Of a DNA stretch of 10,712 nucleotides, positions 362-10,712 are shown in pieces (the stretch's first letter is position 1; every line of letters starts with the position of its first letter). The DNA comes from a bacterium (GTDB lineage: Bacteria; BMS3Abin14). The stretch is taken from NCBI GenBank assembly GCA_020350725.1, contig CP070719.1, positions 652,864 through 663,575 of the forward strand, written 5' to 3'. The position numbers were made by a program, and so were the translations under genes. The notes beneath the pieces are model-generated. The model had not been told where the DNA came from and ran no database searches. It worked only from the letters and a program-made list of their open reading frames with translations.

Positions 362-889
362 ATGTCCAAACACGCTGACAGACTGGCCGAGGCCGGCATA
401 GCCGTCCTGACCTGCGCCCTGATCCTCCTCAACCTCCCGGGGATGATCGGCGGGCCGGGCCGGGCCGATGGCCTCGCCGCCGCCCGCCCTCAGGAGCTCT
501 CCTCCCTGGACAGGCCGTCCTTCCTCCAGGACCTGGACAGGGCCAGGTACCTGGTGGACGGAAACGGTGATCCGGAGGACGCCCTGGCCGATCTCAAGTC
601 CCGTTTTCCGGGGAGGCACGAGGTCTGGGCCCTTTCCGCAAGACACAGTGAGTCGGCCGGTGACGAGTACGGGGCCGTTCTGGATTACGCCCGGGCGGTC
701 AGGCTCCAGCCGGACTACCTGGACGATCGATCCCCGCTCTACATGGGCGTCAGGATCGCCCGGATCGCGGAGAGGGCCTTCTCAGACCTGACCCGGGCAC
801 GAGCGACGGGCCGGCTGGAGAGGGTAGAGAGGGATGCCCTTGACGGTGTCTATTTCCTCAGACGGCGCCTGGCGGGAGGGTGCGAATGA
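362..889 (+). CDS. Small membrane-anchored TPR-like protein
   Basis: This 175-residue protein has a hydrophobic N-terminal segment (about residues 11-28, preceded by charged residues). It is either an uncleaved anchor or a signal sequence, so the rest probably lies outside the cytoplasmic membrane. Residues about 86-119 look like one tetratricopeptide repeat (Trp, Ala, Gly, Tyr/Ala and a terminal Pro in the usual spacing). A weaker helix pair flanks it. TPRs mediate protein-protein contacts, and no enzymatic motif is visible. The ATG at 362 is chosen over an in-frame TTG at 302 because the extra 20 codons are mostly GGAYTTT/GTGAAC repeat DNA, and TAGG at 351-354 can serve as a weak ribosome site. 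Its stop overlaps the YedE start (ATGA, 886-889), so the two are probably co-translated and may work together. The family is not recognised; the TPR reading is moderate. Confidence 0.7.
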   Translation: MSKHADRLAEAGIAVLTCALILLNLPGMIGGPGRADGLAAARPQELSSLDRPSFLQDLDRARYLVDGNGDPEDALADLKSRFPGRHEVWALSARHSESAGDEYGAVLDYARAVRLQPDYLDDRSPLYMGVRIARIAERAFSDLTRARATGRLERVERDALDGVYFLRRRLAGGCE

Positions 890-1944
890 AGTGGGCGAAA
901 GGGGACAGCCTGCTCATCGCCGCCGCCGGAGCCAGCATGGGTGTCCTCGGCGTGGCGCTGGTCCACTGGGGCAACCCCGCCAATTCGGGGATCTGTATCT
1001 CCTGCTTCGTGGAGAACCTCGCCGGGGGACTTCAGCTGCACGCCAACGACCGCATGGCCTATTTCAGGCCGGAACTGGCCGGATTCGTCCTCGGAGCCTT
1101 CCTGATGGCCATGGCCGGCAGGGAACACCGCGCCAGATCAGGCCGTCTTCCCCTGATGGGTTTTTTCCTCGGGGTTTTCCTGATCGTAGGCTCTTCCGTT
1201 TTCATGGGGTGTCCCATCAAGATGATGCTCCGTATCGCAGCCGGCGACCTGACCGCGCTGGGAGGTCTGGCCGGTCTGGGTGCCGGGGTATGGGTCGGCG
1301 TCTTCTACCTGAGGGCGGGGGTCGACGTGGGGGGTACCCGCGCCGAGCAGGGAAAGCTCCAGGGTTATCTCCTGCCCCTGGTGACCTTCATCGTGTTCGC
1401 GGGATGGATCCTGCGGCCGGGCATCCTGACGGCCAGTGTGACGGGACCCGGCAGCCGCCATGCACCGGTGGCTTTGGCCCTCATAAGCGGCCTCCTGATA
1501 GGGGCTCTGGCCCAGAGATCCCGATTCTGCGTAACGGGAAGCTTTACCAATCTTTACCTCGCCCGCGACGCCGGGCTGATGAAGGGACTGGCCTCTCTTC
1601 TCCTCTCTGCGGTGGCGCTCAGCGCCGCCCTCGGCCTCCTCCGGGTCGGGGTCCTCGATCAGCCGGGATCCCATCCCGACCATCTCTGGAATTTCCTCAG
1701 CATGGCCATGGTCGGCTTCGCGTCGGTTCTGGCGGGGGGCTGTCCCTTCCGACAGCTCGTCCTGGCCGGCGAGGGGGCCACGGACGCCGCATTGGTCGTC
1801 CTCGGCATGGTCGTGGGAGGGGGGGTGGTCCACCAGTGGGGGATCGCAAGCACCTCGGCCGGGCCGACGCCCCACGGCAAGGCGGCGGTTCTTCTGGGCC
1901 TGATCTTCTGCCTGGCCGTCGCGAGGGCCTACCGGAGGGATTGA
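886..1944 (+). CDS. yedE: YedE/YeeE-family membrane protein, probably selenium-metabolism YedE/FdhT type
   Basis: A 352-residue polytopic inner-membrane protein with about nine or ten hydrophobic segments. The family (YeeE/YedE, sulf_transp) moves sulfur species such as thiosulfate. A subfamily called YedE/FdhT co-occurs with selenium utilisation genes, and the best fit here is that subfamily. Characteristic internal-repeat motifs are visible: an SGICISCF segment with C37 and C40, GCP at 109-110 before IKMM, RSRFC with C215, and GGCP at 284-287 before FRQL. Conserved cysteines of this sort line the substrate path in YeeE. The ATG at 886 is preferred over GTG 880 because GGGAGGG (874-880) is well placed for it and it forms an ATGA overlap with the upstream TPR-like gene. 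The substrate (sulfur or selenium species) cannot be decided from sequence. The desulfurase and DUF3343 genes downstream favour a selenium link. Confidence 0.88.
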   Translation: MKWAKGDSLLIAAAGASMGVLGVALVHWGNPANSGICISCFVENLAGGLQLHANDRMAYFRPELAGFVLGAFLMAMAGREHRARSGRLPLMGFFLGVFLIVGSSVFMGCPIKMMLRIAAGDLTALGGLAGLGAGVWVGVFYLRAGVDVGGTRAEQGKLQGYLLPLVTFIVFAGWILRPGILTASVTGPGSRHAPVALALISGLLIGALAQRSRFCVTGSFTNLYLARDAGLMKGLASLLLSAVALSAALGLLRVGVLDQPGSHPDHLWNFLSMAMVGFASVLAGGCPFRQLVLAGEGATDAALVVLGMVVGGGVVHQWGIASTSAGPTPHGKAAVLLGLIFCLAVARAYRRD

Positions 1945-2299: not shown

Positions 2300-2635
2300 T
2301 TGGCTGTCCTGACCCGTGCACCCTCCGTTCAGTGGAGGGTCGAGGAGCACAGAGAGGAGAAAGCCCTGGAGGTCCTGGCCGATCCTGACCGACTCGGGGA
2401 GGACCCCGATGTGATGGAGCTCGGGACGGTGACCATCCTGGCCGGAGGCGTGATGCATCAGCTCAACCTCCTCGGCGGCCGGATCTGGACACTCTGCGAC
2501 GGAACCCGGGACAGGGCTGCGGTCCTGGACGAGCTGCTCGGGGTCTTCGAGGTGGACCGGCAGACGCTTTCCCGCGACCTGGACGAGTTTCTCGCCGACA
2601 TGATCGGAAAGGGGTTGATCCGTGAAGAGGAATGA
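2300..2635 (+). CDS. PqqD-family peptide carrier (GeoRSP type)
   Basis: This 111-residue protein matches the PqqD fold in its C-terminal part: residues about 53-107 carry HQLN, then IWTLCDGTRD, a helical stretch, a valine-aspartate turn, then DLDEFLADMIGKGLI. PqqD-like RREs (RiPP recognition elements) bind the leader of a precursor peptide and present it to a partner radical SAM/SPASM enzyme; here the partner is the next gene. It is longer than a minimal PqqD (about 90 residues), with roughly 40 extra residues at the N terminus. The TTG start follows a near-perfect AGGAGGT. Its end overlaps the radical SAM start by 14 bases, so the two are probably made in a fixed ratio. TIGRFAMs names such a set GeoRSP (Geobacter radical SAM/SPASM/PqqD); that assignment is from memory of domain order and size, not a search. 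The substrate is unknown. Confidence 0.85.
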   Translation: MAVLTRAPSVQWRVEEHREEKALEVLADPDRLGEDPDVMELGTVTILAGGVMHQLNLLGGRIWTLCDGTRDRAAVLDELLGVFEVDRQTLSRDLDEFLADMIGKGLIREEE

Positions 2636-3644
2636 CGGCCTCCTCTCGGCTCCATTGACCATCAACTGGTCCCTGTCCTATGACTGCAACTTCTCCTGCA
2701 GCCACTGTTACAGCCGGGATCTGGGCGACGGGGGGCTGCCCCGGGAGGAGATCTTCCGGATCGCCGACCTCCTGGCTGCGAAGGGTGTCATGTTCGTGAA
2801 CTTCGGCGGCGGCGAACCCCTGGTCTACGGCAACCTCTTCGACGTCGCCGCCTATGCGTCGGGGGCGGGCCTGAAAGTCACGATGAACAGCAACGGCTTT
2901 CTCCTGGAACGGCGTGCGGCGGCCGAGATCGCCCGGGCCGGATTTCACAGTGTGGGGATAAGCATCGACAGCCCCGTCCGGGAGGTACACGACCGGTTTC
3001 GAAACATGCCGGGCAGTTTCGACAGGGCCCTGGCCGCCCTGGACCATCTGAGAGAGGCCGGCGTTCCGTCCACCGTCTCCTGTGTCGTCAACCGTCTGAA
3101 TGTGAACAACTGGGACGGGATGATCGCCCTGTGCAGCGATCACGGAGCAGAAACGCTGTACCTGCACAACTACAAATGCACCGGAATGGGGCTCGCCAAT
3201 ATGGGAGGCCTGGACCTGAGCCCCGAGGAGTGGGGCCGGTTCTACGCCGGTGCTCTCGAGATCCAGAGGGCCGTCAACGACATCACCATCTCCTTCGACG
3301 ATCCCATAATGGCGGCCGTGCCCGGCCACGACCCCCGGACAGCAGTCCCCGGAAGCACCTGCGGCAAGCTCAGCCTGCACCTGAAGCCCAACGGGGATCT
3401 GACGCCATGCGGTTTCATTCCCGTCGTTATAGGCAACATCCTCGAGGATGAGCTCGATGACATCTGGTTCTACTCCCCCGTCCTCCAGAGCATGCGTGCG
3501 AAAACCCCCCAGGGAAAATGCGACGGATGCGAGAGTTACAAAACCTGTCTGGGCGGGTGCACGGCCAGGGTCTTCGCCCTGACCGGCACCTTCGATCAAC
3601 CTGACCCCCACTGCTGGATCGAGGAGGAGGACCGGGATGGCTGA
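2622..3644 (+). CDS. Radical SAM/SPASM peptide-modifying enzyme (GeoRSP type)
   Basis: A 340-residue cytosolic enzyme. The N-terminal radical SAM barrel has the [4Fe-4S]-binding CX3CX2C at C22, C26 and C29 and the SAM-binding GGGEP at 62-66. The C-terminal SPASM domain is complete: C247, C263, then CX2CX5CX3C at C300, C303, C309 and C313, and a last Cys at C331, enough for two auxiliary iron-sulfur clusters. Enzymes of this architecture (PqqE, AnSME, MftC, thioether-forming sactisynthases) cut SAM to a 5'-deoxyadenosyl radical and modify a peptide or protein side chain. The chemistry performed here cannot be read from sequence. The GTG start at 2622 has AAAGGGG upstream (2608-2614) inside the PqqD-like gene. 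The 3' end overlaps the SPASM-only gene by 8 bases. The adjacent PqqD-like protein argues for a leader-bearing substrate. Confidence 0.93.
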   Translation: MKRNDGLLSAPLTINWSLSYDCNFSCSHCYSRDLGDGGLPREEIFRIADLLAAKGVMFVNFGGGEPLVYGNLFDVAAYASGAGLKVTMNSNGFLLERRAAAEIARAGFHSVGISIDSPVREVHDRFRNMPGSFDRALAALDHLREAGVPSTVSCVVNRLNVNNWDGMIALCSDHGAETLYLHNYKCTGMGLANMGGLDLSPEEWGRFYAGALEIQRAVNDITISFDDPIMAAVPGHDPRTAVPGSTCGKLSLHLKPNGDLTPCGFIPVVIGNILEDELDDIWFYSPVLQSMRAKTPQGKCDGCESYKTCLGGCTARVFALTGTFDQPDPHCWIEEEDRDG

Positions 3645-4527
3645 CCTGGGCTTCGACTCGCCCTGGCGCGTGCACTGGCGGCTTCTGGGCTGCGACCCGG
3701 CGCCGGTCGCGGGCATGATCCGGGAGGCAGGGCCCCTGGCGGTTACACTGGAAGTGTGTTCGCCGGATGAGCTGTCGGGCCTCGAGCTGCCCTGGCCCAA
3801 CGCATCCTTCGTGGTCGTCCTGCAGGACTGGAAGATGGTCCGGGACGGCCTGTCTGGATCGGATGTCGCCAGGTGGGAGTTTCCCGTCACCGGGCCTGAG
3901 GAAGCAAGGCAGGCGGCCGAACTCCACTCCGGAAGGCTTCCGCCGTGGGGAGGAGCCTTCCGGTGGCTTCCCGTCCGCGGCCGTCTGACCGATCTGCCCG
4001 TCATGCTTGAATTGGCGGCGAAGAATCGATTCGGTGTGACCTTGCCAAACAGACGGGCAGATGATATCACGGCGCGGAAAGAAGACGTGCTGCCCCTGCC
4101 CGGGGAACCGGGCGCTCTTGACCGCGACACCGTGATGCGGCTGGTTGAGGAGCTGGGCAAGGAGAGGATCAGGGTCCACGATTTTATCCTCTCCCAGACC
4201 ATGGGCCTGAGCACCACGGAGCCGGGCGGCTGCGAGGCGGCAAATGCCCTGGTCTTCGTTGACGAGGCGGGAGACGTCTACCCGTGCGATTCCCTCCGGG
4301 TCAGAATGGGCAGCCTTCGCCGGGAGAGCCTGAGGGATGTCTGGGAAAAACCGATCCGGACCCGGATCAGGAGGGACGTCAGCTCCCTTCCTCCTGTCTG
4401 TTCATCCTGTGACGTTCTCCCTCTCTGCAGAGGGGGGTGCAGGGGGATTGCCTTCCACGTGACGGGTCATTTCGGCGCTCCCGACATGCTGTGCGGCCAT
4501 CACGAATGTAAAGAGGACGATCTTTGA
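3637..4527 (+). CDS. SPASM-domain protein lacking the radical SAM cluster motif (GeoRSP type)
   Basis: This 296-residue protein ends in a full SPASM cysteine set: C199, C217, CX2CX5CX3C at C255, C258, C264 and C268, and C286 (plus C291). Its N-terminal ~190 residues contain no CX3CX2C and no GGGEP-like motif; the only cysteines there are C19 and C41. It therefore cannot make a SAM radical by the usual route and is best read as a degenerate paralogue. It may act as an auxiliary-cluster electron partner or a subunit of the preceding enzyme (inference). Size and position fit the TIGRFAMs-type GeoRSP system SPASM domain protein. It overlaps its upstream neighbour by 8 bases and its downstream neighbour by 4 (TTGA), so stoichiometric production with the radical SAM enzyme is likely. 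It is not a frameshifted fragment: the frame is intact and the loss is confined to the N-terminal motifs. Confidence 0.85.
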   Translation: MADLGFDSPWRVHWRLLGCDPAPVAGMIREAGPLAVTLEVCSPDELSGLELPWPNASFVVVLQDWKMVRDGLSGSDVARWEFPVTGPEEARQAAELHSGRLPPWGGAFRWLPVRGRLTDLPVMLELAAKNRFGVTLPNRRADDITARKEDVLPLPGEPGALDRDTVMRLVEELGKERIRVHDFILSQTMGLSTTEPGGCEAANALVFVDEAGDVYPCDSLRVRMGSLRRESLRDVWEKPIRTRIRRDVSSLPPVCSSCDVLPLCRGGCRGIAFHVTGHFGAPDMLCGHHECKEDDL

Positions 4528-5693
4528 CCCGGCGGACCATCTACATGAACAACGCCGCCACGAGCTGGCCGAAACCGGAACCGGTGATCGGCAGGTTGAT
4601 GTGGGGCGTAACCGAACTCTCCGCCGCCCCCGGCAGAGCCGGTTCTCCAGCCCTCGAGAGCGAGAGGGCCATCTTCGAGGCCCGCGAAGAGGTGGCGAAA
4701 TTCATCGGCGCCAGGGACAGCTCACGGGTGGTCTTCACCCTCAACGCAACGGCGGCTCTCAACCTCGCCATAGGGGGGCTTGTCAGGGCCGGTGACAGGG
4801 TGATCACCACTTCCATGGACCACAACTCGGTGGCCCGCCCCCTGGCCAGGGCGGCGGAGGAGATGGACGTCGAGGTCGTCCGGGTAACTGCCGATGAAGC
4901 GGGGGAGCTTCAGGCAACGCAGATCCTGGACGAGATCGATGACCGGACCCGGATGATCATCCTCACCCATGCCTCCAACGTCACCGGCGCTATTCAGCCG
5001 GTGGAAGAAATTGCCGAGGCGCTGTCGGCCCGGGAGGGATCAAGGCCCCTCCTCCTCGTCGACGCGGCCCAGTCCGCCGGCGTCCTCCCCATCGACGTCG
5101 ACCGGTCGGGAATCGATCTCCTGGCGGCCCCCGGACACAAATCCCTCTATGGTCCGCAGGGTACGGGCATCCTCTACGTGGGGGAGGGAGCCGACCCCGT
5201 TCCCCTCATGGAGGGCGGCACGGGCGGGGAATCGACACTGGTTCGACAGCCGACCTCCCTGCCGGACCGTTACGAGAGCGGGACGCCCAACATCCCCGGC
5301 ATCGTGGCCCTGGGGGAGGCAGTCAGGTTCATCGGGGACAGGGGCATCGACACGATCCGGGCCCACGAGAACAGACTGATGGGGACCCTGATCGAGGGGC
5401 TGGCAGGGGTAAGGGGGGTGCGACTGTTCGGGCCCTGCCGGCCTGACCGTCAGGTGGCGGTCCTGTCCTTCACAGTCGAGGGGATGGATCCGGCCGAGGT
5501 GGGCACCTACCTGGAGAGGACCGAGGGGATCGTCACGCGCGTCGGGCTTCACTGCTCGCCCCACTCCCACCGGACCATCGGGACCTACCCCGAAGGGACC
5601 ATTAGGGTCAGCCCGGGGATCTTCAATGTCGACTCCGATATCCTCTCCCTGGTCCGGGGCGTTGAGAGATTGGCGGCGAGGCGGTCCCGATGA
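4524..5693 (+). CDS. Class V aminotransferase-fold cysteine desulfurase
   Basis: A 389-residue PLP enzyme that takes sulfur from L-cysteine (or selenium from selenocysteine) as a cysteine persulfide. Visible residues: H149 in THASNVTG (stacks on PLP), D180 and Q183 in VDAAQSAG, the Schiff-base lysine K206 in GHKSLYGPQG, and the catalytic cysteine C344 in GLHCSPHSH. A YESGTPNIPG segment (250-259) closes the active site. The N terminus (IYMNNAATSWPKP) is typical of the non-IscS, non-SufS group annotated as 'cysteine desulfurase family protein' (TIGR01977 type), often found beside selenium genes. TTG 4524 is chosen because AGAGGA (4512-4517) precedes it and it makes a TTGA overlap; ATG 4545 is the alternative. 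The end overlaps DUF3343 by ATGA. It is likely the S or Se donor for the operon rather than the general Fe-S supplier (inference). Confidence 0.92.
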   Translation: MTRRTIYMNNAATSWPKPEPVIGRLMWGVTELSAAPGRAGSPALESERAIFEAREEVAKFIGARDSSRVVFTLNATAALNLAIGGLVRAGDRVITTSMDHNSVARPLARAAEEMDVEVVRVTADEAGELQATQILDEIDDRTRMIILTHASNVTGAIQPVEEIAEALSAREGSRPLLLVDAAQSAGVLPIDVDRSGIDLLAAPGHKSLYGPQGTGILYVGEGADPVPLMEGGTGGESTLVRQPTSLPDRYESGTPNIPGIVALGEAVRFIGDRGIDTIRAHENRLMGTLIEGLAGVRGVRLFGPCRPDRQVAVLSFTVEGMDPAEVGTYLERTEGIVTRVGLHCSPHSHRTIGTYPEGTIRVSPGIFNVDSDILSLVRGVERLAARRSR

Positions 5694-5959
5694 AGACCGG
5701 CGAGCTCCTCGTCGTGTTCCCCACCACCCACCTGACCCTCAAGGCCGAGCAGGTCCTGAGGGGGGCGGGTATTGCCCACCGGACTATTCTCAAACCCAGG
5801 AAGGTCAGCAGCGACTGCGGTCTGGCGATCCGCCTCCAGTGGGAGGACCTGGACAGGGCGGCGGGCATTCTGGAGGAGGCGAAACACCTTCCCGCCACCT
5901 TCTACCGGTCCGAGGAGGGCCAGTGGAGCCAGATCCGCATGCTGGGTGCTCCGGAGTGA
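5690..5959 (+). CDS. DUF3343 putative Se/S carrier-like protein
   Basis: This 89-residue protein matches the DUF3343 (putative Se/S carrier-like) family in length and in its key segment: a beta strand (ELLVVFPTTH), a helix with a conserved Lys-Ala-Glu, then a basic stretch and S-S-D-C-G-L-A-I-R with C43. C43 is the family's invariant cysteine and the presumed site that would hold persulfide or perselenide sulfur/selenium. The fold resembles a small ferredoxin-like or TusA-like carrier. The ATG start sits in the desulfurase stop (ATGA), an arrangement suggesting direct handover from the desulfurase. Family function is not proven by experiment as far as I know; the name rests on genomic association with selenium genes. 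It is the last gene of the five-gene unit, and repeat DNA begins right after its stop. Confidence 0.88.
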   Translation: MKTGELLVVFPTTHLTLKAEQVLRGAGIAHRTILKPRKVSSDCGLAIRLQWEDLDRAAGILEEAKHLPATFYRSEEGQWSQIRMLGAPE

Positions 5960-5979
5960 AGGGACGGGGGGGGGAAATG

Positions 5980-6007
5980 AGTCCAGAGTCCAGAGGCCAG
6001 GGTCCAG
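5980..6007 (+). repeat. AGTCCAG heptad array, copy C
   Basis: AGTCCAG twice, AGGCCAG and GGTCCAG, four units without gaps, beginning 20 bases after the DUF3343 stop. Confidence 0.85.
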
Positions 6008-6076
6008 AGGGAGGACGGAGACGCGGGGACACGAGGGGGTGAGGGGGAGATAGGGCGAGGGGGCGAACAAGCGGCT

Positions 6077-6110
6077 GTCATTGCGAACCAGGACTCAGGT
6101 GAAGCAATCT
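6077..6110 (+). repeat. 34-bp constant-arm element, copy C
   Basis: Arms are identical to copies A and B; the core CAGGACTCAG is the most divergent. The preceding GGGGGCGAACAAGCGG matches copy A, so identity extends well outside the 34 bp on the left. Confidence 0.8.
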
Positions 6111-6115
6111 GTGAC

Positions 6116-6209
6116 TGTGAACTGTGAACCAGTCTTTTCGAATCACTAATTACGAATCACAAATCACGGCTCTTTCCAAACCGTGAACTGGAAACTGTAA
6201 ACTGTGAAC
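6116..6209 (+). repeat. Paired heptad arrays, copy C1
   Basis: TGTGAAC twice (6116-6129), a different linker (CAGTCTTTTCG), then AATCACT, AATTACG, AATCACA and AATCACG (6141-6168). GCTCTTTCCAAAC, CGTGAAC, TGGAAAC, TGTAAAC and TGTGAAC (6182-6209) follow. The stretch from AATCAC through GCTCTTT to GTGAACTG closely matches spacer A (about 254-290). Confidence 0.85.
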
Positions 6210-6217
6210 CATTTTTT

Positions 6218-6271
6218 GGACTTTGGACTTTGGATTGATCACTAATCTCTAATTTCTAATGCTCTAATGTT
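6218..6271 (+). repeat. GGACTTT heptads followed by CTAATNT units
   Basis: GGACTTT twice and GGATTGA (6218-6238) match the 304-331 module. CTAATCT, CTAATTT, CTAATGCT and CTAATGTT (6242-6271) are a further motif family of period 7-8, seen only here. Confidence 0.75.
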
Positions 6272-6283
6272 CTGCTTTTCAGC

Positions 6284-6389
6284 TGTGAACCGTGAACCGG
6301 GAACTGGGAACTGGAATTTACGAATCACGAGTCACTAATCACGAATCACGGCGGTCTCAACTGTGAACCGGGAACCGGGAACTGTGAAC
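6284..6389 (+). repeat. Paired heptad arrays, copy C2
   Basis: TGTGAAC, CGTGAAC, CGGGAAC and TGGGAAC (6284-6311), linker TGGAATTTAC (6312-6321), AATCACG, AGTCACT and AATCACG twice (6323-6350). Then GCGGTCTCAAC, TGTGAAC, CGGGAAC twice and TGTGAAC (6362-6389). Linker and unit count match copy A. Confidence 0.85.
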
Positions 6390-6413
6390 TGTATTTAATA
6401 TAAGGATTTCGAT

Positions 6414-7361
6414 TTGCGCATCTACGGCAACCTCGATGAGATCCACGGTCGCGAACGGGGCTGTGTCGCGGCCGTCGGCAACTTTGACGGTGTCCACCTG
6501 GGGCACGGGGCCATCCTCAAGCAGGCCGCCGCCAACGCCGCTGCCAGAGGGGTTCCCGGCCTGGTCATGACCTTCAGCGTTCATCCCGCCAACCGGCTCA
6601 GACCGCACAGCGCTCCGAGAATCATCATGAAAATGGAGGATCGGCTGGCCCTCATGGCCCGCGCCGGTATCCAGGCGGCGCTGGTCCTGCCCTTCGACAG
6701 GCGGCTTGCCGGCATGGAGCCGGCAGAGTTCGTCGACGGGGTCCTGATCAACAGCCTGGGCATCACCGAGGTCGTCGCCGGCGAGGAATGGAGGTTCGGT
6801 AAGGATCGGGTCGGTGATATGGACAGCCTGTCTTCCATGGGCCGTGAGCGGGGTTTTTCGGTCACCTCGGTCGGCGCTCAGATGCTTGAGGGGTCTCCGG
6901 TCAGCTCCACGCGCATCAGGGGCGCCCTTCAGGAAGGAGATGTCGGCCTGGCGGAAAAACTCCTCGGACGTCCCCACTTCGCCCGGGGCACCGTCGAGCG
7001 GGGGGAGGGCAGGGGAAGGAGGCTCGGGTTCCCAACCGTCAACCTCGCCTGTGAGAGTGTGATCCTCCCTGCCCGGGGGGTCTACGGTGCCGCGTTCGCC
7101 TGCGATGACAGGGTGGGGCCTGCCGCGGTGAATATCGGAAGCCGGCCGACCTTCGGGAGCGGGACGGGAACCGTGGAGGCCCACCTCGTCGGGGTCCGTG
7201 AGGACCTGTACGGCAGGCAGGTGACCATCATCTTTCTGACGAGACTGCGGGACGAAATAGCGTTTCCCGACAGGGGTTCCCTGATCGAACAGATCGCCCG
7301 GGACGTTGAGAGGGCCGAGAAAACCTTCGATCTCTCTCGAATAGGGGAGGTGCCCCTGTGA
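6414..7361 (+). CDS. ribF: Bifunctional riboflavin kinase / FAD synthetase RibF
   Basis: A 315-residue cytosolic enzyme that phosphorylates riboflavin to FMN and adenylates FMN to FAD; length is normal for RibF. The N-terminal FMN adenylyltransferase domain shows GNFDGVHLGH (22-31, nucleotide binding), TFSVHP (53-58), GEEWRFG (123-129) and SSTRIRGAL (164-172). The C-terminal riboflavin kinase domain shows GRRLGFPTVN (201-210), a VYG strand (223-225) and NIGSRPTFG (240-248), with the catalytic glutamate of the kinase domain probably E255. The TTG start at 6414 is preferred because AAGGA (6402-6406) lies at correct spacing and the protein begins exactly where the family does; no upstream ATG exists. 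It sits alone between a repeat spacer and the pilus genes, and no FMN riboswitch was seen before it. Confidence 0.95.
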   Translation: MRIYGNLDEIHGRERGCVAAVGNFDGVHLGHGAILKQAAANAAARGVPGLVMTFSVHPANRLRPHSAPRIIMKMEDRLALMARAGIQAALVLPFDRRLAGMEPAEFVDGVLINSLGITEVVAGEEWRFGKDRVGDMDSLSSMGRERGFSVTSVGAQMLEGSPVSSTRIRGALQEGDVGLAEKLLGRPHFARGTVERGEGRGRRLGFPTVNLACESVILPARGVYGAAFACDDRVGPAAVNIGSRPTFGSGTGTVEAHLVGVREDLYGRQVTIIFLTRLRDEIAFPDRGSLIEQIARDVERAEKTFDLSRIGEVPL

Positions 7362-7485: not shown

Positions 7486-9276
7486 ATGTCGGCAGCACGA
7501 CTTGGTGAGATGCTCGTCAGGGCCAAACTGATCGACGAGGAGCAGCTCAAATTGGCCCTGGAGGAGCAGGGGAAATCCGGCGGGCGGTTGGGATACAACC
7601 TCGCCAAGCTGGAGATCCTGAGCGAGGCGGAGATCGTGGCTTTCCTGAGCAAGCAGTACGGGGTGCCTTCGATCAACCTCGCCGAATTCGATATCGATCC
7701 GAACATCATCAAGCTCATTCCCGCCAAAACGGCCAAAAAGTACCAACTCATTCCCGTGAGCCGGACCGGGGGCACCCTGACCCTTGCCATGGCCGACCCG
7801 ACCAACGTCTTCGCGCTGGACGACATCAAGTTCATGACCGGATACAACGTCGAGCCGGTGGTGGCATCCGAGACCGCCATCGAGGACGCCATCATGAAGT
7901 ACTACGAATCGGGCGGGTTCGGAGGCGGCAGGGCGGACATCGACGCCACCGATTTCAACCTGGATGACGTCGACATCGGGGGGTTCGAGGGTGAAATGGA
8001 GGCCGGCGCCATCCTCGATGTGGAGGAATTCGACAATCTGGTTCAGGGGGCGGTGGACGACGTCGAGGTGGTTGAGGATTCCGACGAGGACATCCTGTCC
8101 GGCGAGGTGGAAGCCCCCATCATCAAGCTCGTGAACGGTATCCTGATCAGGGCCTACAAGATGAAGGTGAGCGATATCCACATCGAACCCTACGAGAGGA
8201 TCATGAGGATCCGCTACCGGCTGGACGGTGTGTGCAAGACGATGATGAATCTGCCCCTCAAGATACGCAACGCGGTCATCTCCCGGGTGAAGATCATGTC
8301 CAAGCTGGACATCGCCGAGAGGAGACTTCCCCAGGACGGTCGGATCAAGATGAAGCTGGGACGCAGAGCGGAGGTCGATTTCAGGGTTTCCGTTCTCCCC
8401 ACCCTCTTCGGGGAGAAGATCGTCCTCCGTCTCCTGGACAAATCCAACCTTCAGCTCGACATGACCAAGCTCGGATTCGAGGAGCAGGCTCTCGCCAACT
8501 TCAAGGAGGCCATCCACAAGCCCTTCGGGATGGTCCTGGTTACCGGGCCCACGGGGAGCGGCAAGACGACGACACTCTATTCGGCCCTGGCGGAACTCAA
8601 CAAGGATGACGTCAACATCATGACGGCCGAGGATCCTGTGGAGTTCAACCTCATGGGCATCAACCAGGTGCAGATGCACGACGAGATCGGCCTGAACTTC
8701 GCGGCCGCCCTCAGGTCGTTCCTGAGGCAGGATCCGGACATTATTCTCGTGGGTGAGATCAGGGATTACGAGACGGCCGAGATCGGGATCAAGGCAGCCC
8801 TCACCGGCCATCTCGTCCTGTCGACGCTCCACACCAACGACGCGCCCTCCACTATCAACAGGCTCCTCAATATGGGCGTCGAACCGTTCCTCGTGGCATC
8901 CGCCGTTATCCTCGTGGTGGCCCAGAGGCTCGCCAGGCGGGTATGTGAAGGGTGCAAGAAGGTCCTCGAGGTACCCGAGAAGGCCCTCATCGACGTCGGT
9001 TTCTCCCCCGAAGAGGCCGGGAACATCGTGTGCTACAAGGGCGAGGGATGCAACGCCTGCGGCGGGACCGGATACAAGGGCAGGGTGGCACTCTACGAGG
9101 TCATGACGGTCAACGACGAGATCAAGGAGGTGATCCTCCAGGGAGGGACCACTTTCGAGATCAAGGAAGCGGCGGTCCGTGCCGAGATGAACACCCTGAG
9201 GATGAGCGGCCTAAACAAGATCAAGGAAGGGGTGACCACCATCGAGGAAGTCCTTCGGGTCACCTTCGGCGATTGA
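7486..9276 (+). CDS. pilB: Type IV pilus extension ATPase PilB
   Basis: A 596-residue cytosolic hexameric ATPase of the GspE/PilB family that drives pilin polymerisation at the inner membrane. N-terminal GspE_N/MshEN-type domain (about 1-140); a highly acidic linker (about 145-207); then the secretion ATPase core with Walker A GPTGSGKT (354-361), Asp box including E382, Walker B region DPDIILVGEIRD (416-427, catalytic E424) and His box GHLVLSTLHTNDA (441-453). A four-cysteine zinc site (C487, C490, C522, C525) and GRVALYEVM (532-540) identify PilB/GspE and exclude PilT. PilB is preferred over GspE because pilT follows 90 bases downstream. Length is slightly above the usual ~565 residues owing to the acidic linker. 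Confidence 0.95.
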   Translation: MSAARLGEMLVRAKLIDEEQLKLALEEQGKSGGRLGYNLAKLEILSEAEIVAFLSKQYGVPSINLAEFDIDPNIIKLIPAKTAKKYQLIPVSRTGGTLTLAMADPTNVFALDDIKFMTGYNVEPVVASETAIEDAIMKYYESGGFGGGRADIDATDFNLDDVDIGGFEGEMEAGAILDVEEFDNLVQGAVDDVEVVEDSDEDILSGEVEAPIIKLVNGILIRAYKMKVSDIHIEPYERIMRIRYRLDGVCKTMMNLPLKIRNAVISRVKIMSKLDIAERRLPQDGRIKMKLGRRAEVDFRVSVLPTLFGEKIVLRLLDKSNLQLDMTKLGFEEQALANFKEAIHKPFGMVLVTGPTGSGKTTTLYSALAELNKDDVNIMTAEDPVEFNLMGINQVQMHDEIGLNFAAALRSFLRQDPDIILVGEIRDYETAEIGIKAALTGHLVLSTLHTNDAPSTINRLLNMGVEPFLVASAVILVVAQRLARRVCEGCKKVLEVPEKALIDVGFSPEEAGNIVCYKGEGCNACGGTGYKGRVALYEVMTVNDEIKEVILQGGTTFEIKEAAVRAEMNTLRMSGLNKIKEGVTTIEEVLRVTFGD

Positions 9277-9280
9277 TCGC

Positions 9281-9345
9281 CTGCCGAGAGACGCGTCGGC
9301 GGTGATTCTTAATCGGATCATTCCCATTCCGGCGTCCTCACGCCG
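9281..9345 (+). other. Two small hairpins in the pilB-pilT gap
   Basis: GCCGA (9283-9287) pairs with TCGGC (9296-9300). CGGCGT (9330-9335) pairs with ACGCCG (9340-9345) across a CCTC tetraloop, about 20 bases before the pilT start. Neither has a T-tract. They could tune pilT translation or mRNA processing, or be chance in GC-rich DNA. Confidence 0.25.
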
Positions 9346-9366
9346 CCCCTGAGGGAGAGAGGCCAT

Positions 9367-10515
9367 ATGGAGGGACCGACCAAGAATATGCCCAACCAGA
9401 GTGCGGGCATGGATGAGATGCCCAGCATTCATCAGATGCTCAAGTTCATGGTGGATAACGGGGCCAGCGATCTCCACATCACGCCGGGCACACCGCCCCA
9501 GTTTCGGATCGACGGATCGCTCCGCCCCCTGAACGTTCCCATCCTCACGCCGCCCGTCACCAAGAAGATCGGCTACAGCCTCCTGACGGACGCCCAGAAA
9601 CACAGCTTCGAGGAGGAGAAGGAACTCGATTTCTCCTTCGGGGTCAAGGGCCTTTCACGGTTCAGGGCCAACATGTTCCACACCAGAGGGTCCGTCGGCC
9701 TGGCCATCCGGACGATCCCCTTCGAGATCATGACTTTCCAGCAGCTGGGACTGCCGAAGGTGGTGGAGGATCTGACCAAGAAACCCAAGGGCCTCATTCT
9801 TGTCACTGGCCCGACCGGGAGCGGGAAATCCACCACCCTCGCAGCCATGATCGACCGGATCAACACCAGCAGACACGAACATATCGTCACCGTTGAAGAC
9901 CCCATAGAGTTCCTCCATCCCCACAAGAGCTGCGTCGTCAACCAGAGGGAGGTCGGGGCCGACACCGACTCCTTCAAGAAAGCGCTCAAGTATATCCTCC
10001 GTCAGGATCCCGACATCGTCCTTATCGGGGAGATGCGCGACCTCGAGACCATCGAGGCCGCCCTGACCGTTTCGGAAACCGGCCACCTGGTGTTCGGCAC
10101 CCTTCACACCAACAACTGCGTCCAGACCATCAACCGGATCATCGACGTCTTCCCGCCGTACCAGCAGCCGCAGGTCCGCGCACAGCTCTCCTTCGTCCTT
10201 GAGGGCGTCCTGTCCCAGACCCTCATCCCCAAGAAGGCCGGAGGCAGGATCCTCGGCCTCGAGATCATGATTCCCAACGCGGCCATCAGGAACCTGATCC
10301 GTGAGGACAAGGTCCATCAGATCTACTCCAGCATGCAGGTCGGCCAGACCAAGTTCGGCATGCAGACCATGAACCAGTCTCTCCTCGATCTCTTTCAGAA
10401 GGGGACGATCTCGCTCGAAGAGGTCCTCGGCCGGACGACCAACCCCGAGGAGATGCGCCAGATGCTCGGCCAGGCCGGGGTGGACGCAGGAGCGAAGTTT
10501 GCCTCATCGGAATGA
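9367..10515 (+). CDS. pilT: Type IV pilus retraction ATPase PilT
   Basis: A 382-residue cytosolic hexameric ATPase that depolymerises pili and powers twitching. The PAS-like N-terminal domain starts around residue 20 (SIHQMLKFMVDNGASDLHIT). Walker A is GPTGSGKS (148-155), Asp box VTVEDPIEF (174-182), Walker B region DPDIVLIGEMRD (214-225) and His box GHLVFGTLHTNN (239-250). The PilT-specific AIRNLIRE motif, required for retraction, is at 306-313. There is no zinc tetracysteine, as expected for PilT. About 20 residues precede the usual N terminus; GAGGGAGAGAGG (9351-9362) supports ATG 9367, but in-frame ATGs at 9388, 9409 and 9418 are alternatives. It is probably transcribed with pilB. The inner-membrane pilC often found next is not in the window; repeat spacer D follows. 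Confidence 0.96.
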   Translation: MEGPTKNMPNQSAGMDEMPSIHQMLKFMVDNGASDLHITPGTPPQFRIDGSLRPLNVPILTPPVTKKIGYSLLTDAQKHSFEEEKELDFSFGVKGLSRFRANMFHTRGSVGLAIRTIPFEIMTFQQLGLPKVVEDLTKKPKGLILVTGPTGSGKSTTLAAMIDRINTSRHEHIVTVEDPIEFLHPHKSCVVNQREVGADTDSFKKALKYILRQDPDIVLIGEMRDLETIEAALTVSETGHLVFGTLHTNNCVQTINRIIDVFPPYQQPQVRAQLSFVLEGVLSQTLIPKKAGGRILGLEIMIPNAAIRNLIREDKVHQIYSSMQVGQTKFGMQTMNQSLLDLFQKGTISLEEVLGRTTNPEEMRQMLGQAGVDAGAKFASSE

Positions 10516-10520
10516 GGGGA

Positions 10521-10544
10521 GTCCGGAGGGGGAGAGATCCGGAC
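10521..10544 (+). terminator. Hairpin just after pilT, possible terminator
   Basis: GTCCGGA (10521-10527) pairs perfectly with TCCGGAC (10538-10544) over a 10-base loop, starting six bases after the pilT stop. Position favours a terminator or 3' stabiliser, but no T run follows, so factor-independent termination is doubtful. Confidence 0.3.
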
Positions 10545-10565
10545 GCGGAGACGCGGAGAGAGATG

Positions 10566-10593
10566 AGCCCAGAGTCCAGAGTCCAGCGTCCAG
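10566..10593 (+). repeat. AGTCCAG heptad array, copy D
   Basis: AGCCCAG, AGTCCAG twice and CGTCCAG, four units without gaps, as in copies B and C. Confidence 0.8.
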
Positions 10594-10598
10594 AGGGG

Positions 10599-10619
10599 GC
10601 CCTTCGACAGGCTCAGGGC
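10599..10619 (+). repeat. TTCGACAGGCTC motif with short inverted ends
   Basis: TTCGACAGGCTC is flanked by GCCCT and AGGGC, which can pair. It is the single-copy counterpart of the pair at 2094-2119 and lies at the same relative place, between the AGTCCAG array and the 34-bp element. Confidence 0.6.
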
Positions 10620-10661
10620 AGGCGAAAGGCCGACGCGGAGACGCGGGGAGAAAAAGCGGTT

Positions 10662-10695
10662 GTCATTGCGAACAGGAAACGGCGTGAAGCAATCC
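10662..10695 (+). repeat. 34-bp constant-arm element, copy D
   Basis: Left arm identical to the others; core AGGAAACGGC (one base from copy B); right arm ends AATCC instead of AATCT, the only arm change among the four copies. Confidence 0.8.
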
Positions 10696-10712
10696 ATGAC
10701 TGTGAACAGGGA

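Follow-up and report, generated by a model that had tools for sequence, protein, structure and literature searches.

The window, which is the whole stretch of 10,712 nucleotides (nt) analyzed here (assembly GCA_020350725.1, contig CP070719.1, positions 652,864-663,575 of the forward strand), carries a GeoRSP-type locus, in which a PqqD-like protein, a radical S-adenosylmethionine (SAM)/SPASM enzyme and a second SPASM protein form a trio, followed by a cysteine desulfurase-like enzyme and a DUF3343 protein. The locus probably represents a peptide-maturation system, for which a very short precursor ending in Val-His-Pro-Cys (VHPC) is proposed. The TPR and YedE genes found upstream, which are joined by an ATGA overlap, are part of this locus; the preliminary description of this DNA did not include them. 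The start of the TPR gene, the ATG at 362, was chosen by comparison with relatives. The features of the locus are:

362..889, + strand: TPR protein with a predicted N-terminal membrane helix and the C-terminus ...RRRLAGGCE (relatives, predicted structure)
881-883, + strand: codon of the penultimate cysteine of the TPR protein, invariant in the family
886..1944, + strand: YedE-family membrane transporter (TIGR04112, 379 bits, cut-off 200), placed by the tree in the GeoRSP-type clade
2300..2635, + strand: PqqD-like peptide chaperone of the RRE fold family (PF05402, 54 bits, cut-off 23.4)
2622..3644, + strand: GeoRSP radical SAM/SPASM enzyme (TIGR04303, 413 bits, cut-off 400)
2685-2708, + strand: CNFSCSHC (CxxxCxxC), the radical-SAM cysteine motif of this enzyme
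3637..4527, + strand: SPASM protein whose radical-SAM half is degenerate (alignment, structure model, PDB matches)
4524..5693, + strand: class V cysteine desulfurase-like enzyme (TIGR01977, 415 bits, cut-off 377)
5690..5959, + strand: Se/S-carrier-like protein with an SSDCG motif (DUF3343, PF11823, 62.7 bits, cut-off 25)

The five open reading frames between 2300 and 5959 overlap at their junctions by 14, 8, 4 and 4 nt, as previously described. Their interpretation as a single operon agrees with these overlaps in the window, but the overlaps are not kept in relatives, where gaps occur instead, with approximately 0.6 kb separating the radical SAM gene from the SPASM gene in locus L041, and a few hundred nt between the SPASM and desulfurase genes in L040 and L042. 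The coupling of the trio to the desulfurase is thus one of neighbourhood. The grouping of the five genes is not due to chance, given that same-family genomes keep the order TPR-YedE-PqqD-rSAM-SPASM-desulfurase-DUF3343-ribF (rSAM, the radical SAM gene) at 40-70% identity.

Among the 84,980 species genomes scanned, 231 relatives were recovered, from which 80 loci were kept, belonging to the Desulfuromonadia (including the Geobacteraceae), the Nitrospirota and the Deferrisomatales, as well as to records labelled Deltaproteobacteria and Rokubacteria. Neighbours were counted around the 55 distinct GeoRSP loci with at least 4.5 kb of flank on both sides, leaving aside the SPASM counts, which are inflated because the SPASM model also matches the radical SAM protein. 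YedE is present in 52 of these loci, the TPR protein and a phosphonate-binding-type (PhnD-type) lipoprotein in 51 each, a NosD/beta-helix protein in 47, the desulfurase in 25, and DUF3343 in six. The trio adjoins YedE, the TPR protein and the lipoprotein in several phyla. The association of the trio with the desulfurase and DUF3343, on which the preliminary description was based, is not peculiar to this genome, as it recurs in eight of the nine own-family loci, although DUF3343 joins the trio solely in the window's own family. Membrane proteins of the ResB, ArsP and Fer4_5 types also recur in the neighbourhood, as do a small OpuAC-like protein and CarboxypepD_reg, HEAT and cupin proteins. The extHIJKLMNOPQS genes, which have a link to selenite, were considered as a possible match for the extended cluster of Geobacter and rejected, given that their described parts, which include a rhodanese, a porin, a Rieske protein and a cytochrome b (PMC5877670, PMC6148476), do not match the neighbours found.

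The proposed GeoRSP identity of the trio was confirmed against NCBIfam and Pfam for the radical SAM enzyme, which passes TIGR04303, and the genes are adjacent in the PqqD-rSAM-SPASM arrangement of this system (TIGR04302/04303/04304). In an alignment of seven sequences, the radical-SAM and SPASM cysteines of the enzyme are invariant. Its matches to TIGR02109 and TIGR03962 lie far below cut-off, and the PqqE structure 6c8v is also among its matches. In the SPASM protein, the CxxxCxxC motif is lost and the seven SPASM cysteines are invariant. Because its structure model (predicted local distance difference test score, pLDDT, of 88.8) best matches the sactisynthase 5wgg/5why and anSME 4k37 in the PDB, this partner is, as modelled, a pseudo-radical-SAM/SPASM subunit.

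When the surroundings of the trio were searched for small conserved open reading frames, a gene of 18-20 amino acids (aa) that lacks annotation emerged, M-K-K-..-Y-x-K-P-[RK]-V-V-G-S-S-x-V-H-P-C-stop, whose product is the best substrate candidate for the enzyme family, rather than a demonstrated feature of this window. The gene, typically MKKYMKPRVVGSSNVHPC, is located 70-250 nt 3' of the radical SAM gene in most Desulfuromonadales loci, and a 20-aa form (MKKQAYVKPRIVGSADVHPC and similar) is found approximately 8-10 kb upstream in Geobacter and some Nitrospirota loci. The entropy of the three codon positions in 88 distinct copies is 0.59, 0.55 and 1.48 bits, respectively, with the third position being by far the most variable. 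Both prolines, the cysteine and the stop never vary, while the synonymous codons used for them do, an invariance that is partly fixed by the search pattern. A Shine-Dalgarno-like sequence precedes 59 of 81 starts. None of the NCBIfam models matches the peptide, and in the open literature searched for GeoRSP, the TIGR accessions, and radical SAM proteins together with either PqqD/Geobacter or multihaem cytochromes, no relevant report was found, neither of a substrate nor of the peptide. The earlier statement that the trio has no known substrate or product is superseded, in its first part, by this candidate.

The occurrence of the peptide closely follows that of GeoRSP. The DNA pattern for P-x-[IV]-x5-[IV]-[HY]-P-C-stop was found in 48 of 50 GeoRSP genomes, compared with none of 18 unrelated controls, and own-family relatives are among the carriers (G001, G002, G003, G004, G007, G008 and G009). 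In a sample of 177 Nitrospirota genomes with at least 90% completeness, authentic peptides were present in all eight GeoRSP genomes versus one of 169 others (Fisher p = 4e-13), authenticity being judged by eye from the KPxVVG context. Seven other Nitrospirota matches look random in sequence, and p is still 6e-10 when all of the matches are counted.

Genomes with the peptide have one to six copies of it, adjoining the radical SAM gene, proteins of the beta-helix/CarboxypepD kind, or multihaem cytochromes of giant size. Giant cytochromes are encoded directly 5' of dispersed copies in L198 (1,734 aa, 23 CXXCH), L204 (2,050 aa, 24 CXXCH) and L206 (more than 2,100 aa, 30 CXXCH), and also in L199, L201, L214 and L215, while in L210 the peptide is followed by a 25-haem protein. 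Other copies adjoin NosD, CarboxypepD_reg or an 810-aa membrane protein. These positions suggest a role for the peptide together with surface and electron-transfer proteins. The membrane protein of approximately 810 aa, which has a weak polyamine-aminopropyltransferase-like match, lies directly 5' of the peptide in own-family relatives (L230:5987-8419, L211:3858-6272). A C-terminal W-N-x-x-T-P-W is common to the peptide-adjacent giant cytochromes (L199, L201, L204, L206, L214, L153, L159 and L164), and may be a sorting or processing signal. A tandem pair of nearly identical peptide genes, approximately 100 nt apart, was also observed (G042:C41:6395-6536).

The transport side of the locus forms a second unit. 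In the Nitrospirota genomes G093 and G103, the desulfurase stays with the PhnD-TPR-YedE genes and the trio is located approximately 30 kb away, so that the desulfurase belongs in the first instance with the transport module. This enzyme has a lysine in GHK and a cysteine in LHCSP in its translation, and scores 317 bits against the selenocysteine lyase model SclA (NF040779), below the cut-off of 525. The SSDCG of the DUF3343 protein is conserved in the window and its relatives. The TPR protein, which ends in ...YYLQ.RLAGGCE or ...IAGSC[GSQ], has its penultimate cysteine in every complete C-terminus of the family, and in six further sequences, and is modelled as an all-helical, TPR-like fold (pLDDT 87) with the last five residues unstructured. 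The position of this cysteine suggests a chalcogen carrier, that is, a carrier of sulfur or selenium. In carriers of the DsrC/TusE type, the last residue but one of a flexible C-terminal tail is likewise a conserved cysteine, and the TPR protein may be compared with them as a lead, although its fold is unrelated and it is predicted to be anchored in the membrane.

The interpretation preferred here, with a probability of approximately 0.65, is that the locus encodes a GeoRSP system for peptide maturation, which acts on a VHPC precursor and is joined to a chalcogen module. The five genes would constitute the cytoplasmic half of this system. The PqqD protein would bind the 18-20 aa precursor and deliver it to the radical SAM/SPASM enzyme, with the SPASM partner, which has a radical-SAM fold without the SAM cluster, acting as an electron-carrying or docking subunit, and the modification would most likely occur on the invariant C-terminal VHPC. 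The desulfurase (with DUF3343 in the window's own family), YedE, the TPR protein and, in relatives, the PhnD-type lipoprotein would form one module, which would import and relay sulfur or selenium species, either for the product made from the peptide or for the numerous Fe-S clusters, with the TPR protein handing these species to or from YedE. The protein families, the conserved neighbourhood, the signs that the peptide gene is coding, and its occurrence together with GeoRSP, are apparent at the sequence level, and the role of the peptide as substrate, the parts played by the PqqD and SPASM proteins, and the direction of chalcogen flow are inferred.

A number of observations weigh against this interpretation. 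The PqqD and SPASM proteins of the window, while passing PF05402 and PF13186, respectively, fall below the cut-offs of their best GeoRSP matches, with 72.6 bits for TIGR04302 (cut-off 100) and 70.4 bits for TIGR04304 (cut-off 300). The exact peptide pattern was not found in two GeoRSP genomes (G082 and G090), nor in the genome of the window itself (a single contig of 2.78 Mb), where a relaxed search returned one chance-looking match with three mismatches, and scanning 190 kb with a profile gave no match. The Nitrospirota genome G111 (L130, L174, L189), by contrast, which is the single peptide carrier among the 169 others, encodes two VHPC peptides along with the PhnD-TPR-YedE-desulfurase genes and gave no GeoRSP radical SAM match, possibly as a result of an assembly gap or the presence of another maturase. 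The link between peptide and enzyme is therefore imperfect.

The shortfall of the two scores is shared by related loci. For TIGR04302, Geobacter and Nitrospirota members pass, and L054 (Desulfuromonadales) and the relative L040 fall short. For TIGR04304, L087 passes, and L112, L054 and L040 fall short. The Geobacteraceae locus L087 passes both cut-offs. Some stretches of the window's genome read N and could hide a precursor, and the precursor of this genome is either divergent, in such a masked stretch, or lost. The 810-aa membrane protein was also tried as a guide to it and rejected, as its best match is 28% identical with no peptide nearby, and the extended cluster of G003 is absent from the approximately 100 kb around the window.

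The peptide-maturation interpretation fits the evidence better than a divergent GeoRSP locus with a supply of Fe-S clusters, which is possible. That the desulfurase and carrier solely feed the clusters of the radical SAM and SPASM proteins would accord with the several clusters expected for these two proteins together, and with the common use of class V desulfurases for this purpose. This proposal is nevertheless improbable, since the desulfurase is missing from half of the loci, and in G093, G103 and G111 it adjoins PhnD-TPR-YedE, rather than the radical SAM gene. Slightly better placed, while still tentative, is the proposal that the desulfurase, DUF3343 and the YedE module supply sulfur or selenium that is built into the VHPC peptide itself. 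The chalcogen proteins accompany the trio across phyla, the precursor ends in an invariant cysteine, and the penultimate cysteine of the TPR protein resembles that of a carrier, but 30 of the 55 well-flanked loci lack the desulfurase, DUF3343 is confined to one family, and the peptide's own cysteine could provide the sulfur, as in the sactipeptides. Modification of the C-terminal ...LAGGCE of the TPR protein, instead of a small peptide, is very unlikely. This C-terminus is invariant, and is the only conserved cysteine tail found near the trio in the window's genome, but the predicted membrane anchor would place it outside the cytoplasm, the TPR protein is also present in G111, where no GeoRSP radical SAM enzyme was found, and it is the small peptide that closely tracks this enzyme.

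A selenium locus, in which YedE would import a selenium compound and the trio would make a selenium-related peptide, is doubtful. Comparative genomics has connected selenium with TIGR04112, DUF3343 and enzymes resembling Sec lyase (PMC5322559). The present locus likewise combines members of TIGR04112 and PF11823 with a class V enzyme of Sec-lyase-like type, but differs in its separate YedE clade, in the TPR partner that replaces YedF, and in the occurrence of the module in genomes that lack selD. The window's own genome has yedF followed by selD with an in-frame TGA, a SelD selenoprotein (G000:C1:1314788-1316350, L037), 650 kb from the window, and selD is present in 47 of 50 GeoRSP genomes, which is weak evidence, as the comparison lacks the selD background of Desulfuromonadia without GeoRSP. 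In the Nitrospirota, selD accompanies high-scoring (canonical) YedE in 17 of 17 genomes, against a background of 85/177 (p = 1.5e-6), whereas the GeoRSP-type YedE is found with selD in six of nine (same background, p = 0.21). The tree separates the two by a 100/100 branch with a length of 1.42, and the high-scoring YedE loci sampled are without the TPR and lipoprotein genes. Given that selD is absent from G093, G103 and G111, which carry the module, the module is not bound to selenophosphate, and sulfur is at least as likely as selenium to be its element. The thio- or seleno-modification pathway envisaged in the preliminary description is thus supported in part, as the YedE found beside the trio strengthens a sulfur or selenium link, but selD is not closely tracked.

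The proposed peptide-maturation system has parallels in several known pathways. In the biosynthesis of pyrroloquinoline quinone (PQQ; PqqA/PqqD/PqqE) and mycofactocin (MftA/B/C), a very short precursor, of about 20-30 aa, a PqqD-like chaperone and a radical SAM/SPASM enzyme are combined in the same way. The present system differs in the VHPC end of its candidate precursor, the one to six dispersed copies of the latter and the extra pseudo-radical-SAM SPASM subunit, and no peptidase was seen in its conserved gene set. The sactipeptide maturases SkfB and CteB, which are also radical SAM/SPASM enzymes acting on cysteine peptides, are the closest solved relatives by sequence or fold, but the identity is low, the RRE is here a separate PqqD protein, and the candidate substrate is far shorter. 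Relative to GeoRSP itself, the window differs in its low-scoring PqqD and SPASM proteins and in the attached desulfurase and DUF3343, and the curated models, as inspected, do not include the candidate peptide or the YedE-TPR-PhnD module.

A broader proposal, which is offered tentatively, is that metal-cycling bacteria have in GeoRSP a ribosomal-peptide pathway of a new class. In each genome, several VHPC peptides of 20 residues would be matured by the PqqD, radical SAM and SPASM proteins, for which YedE, TPR-Cys and the desulfurase would form a dedicated source of sulfur or selenium. Each peptide would become a small partner, with a redox, metal-binding or structural function, of the adjacent giant multihaem cytochromes and beta-helix surface proteins. 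The giant cytochrome neighbours, found both in Geobacter-type bacteria and in Nitrospirota, suggest a connection with extracellular electron transfer, a process in which, to our knowledge, no peptide-derived cofactors are known. A concrete, synthesizable candidate of 18-20 aa makes the GeoRSP enzyme testable at once. The split between selD-linked and GeoRSP-type YedE suggests that the label "putative selenium transporter" spans two functions.

Further genes of the window lie 3' of the operon:

6414-7361: ribF, which stays adjacent in relatives
7486-10515: two GspE/PilB- and PilT-like ATPase genes after ribF (by inspection)

An RNA element in the 355-nt gap 5' of pqqD was considered and rejected, as the predicted fold is no better than that of shuffled sequences. 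Related tracts, in several copies, fill the intergenic gaps of the window at 106-360, 1945-2290, 5960-6400 and 10530-10712 (GTGAACCGTGAACTG, AATCACGAATCACTA, TCATTGCGAACAGG...GTGAAGCAATC).

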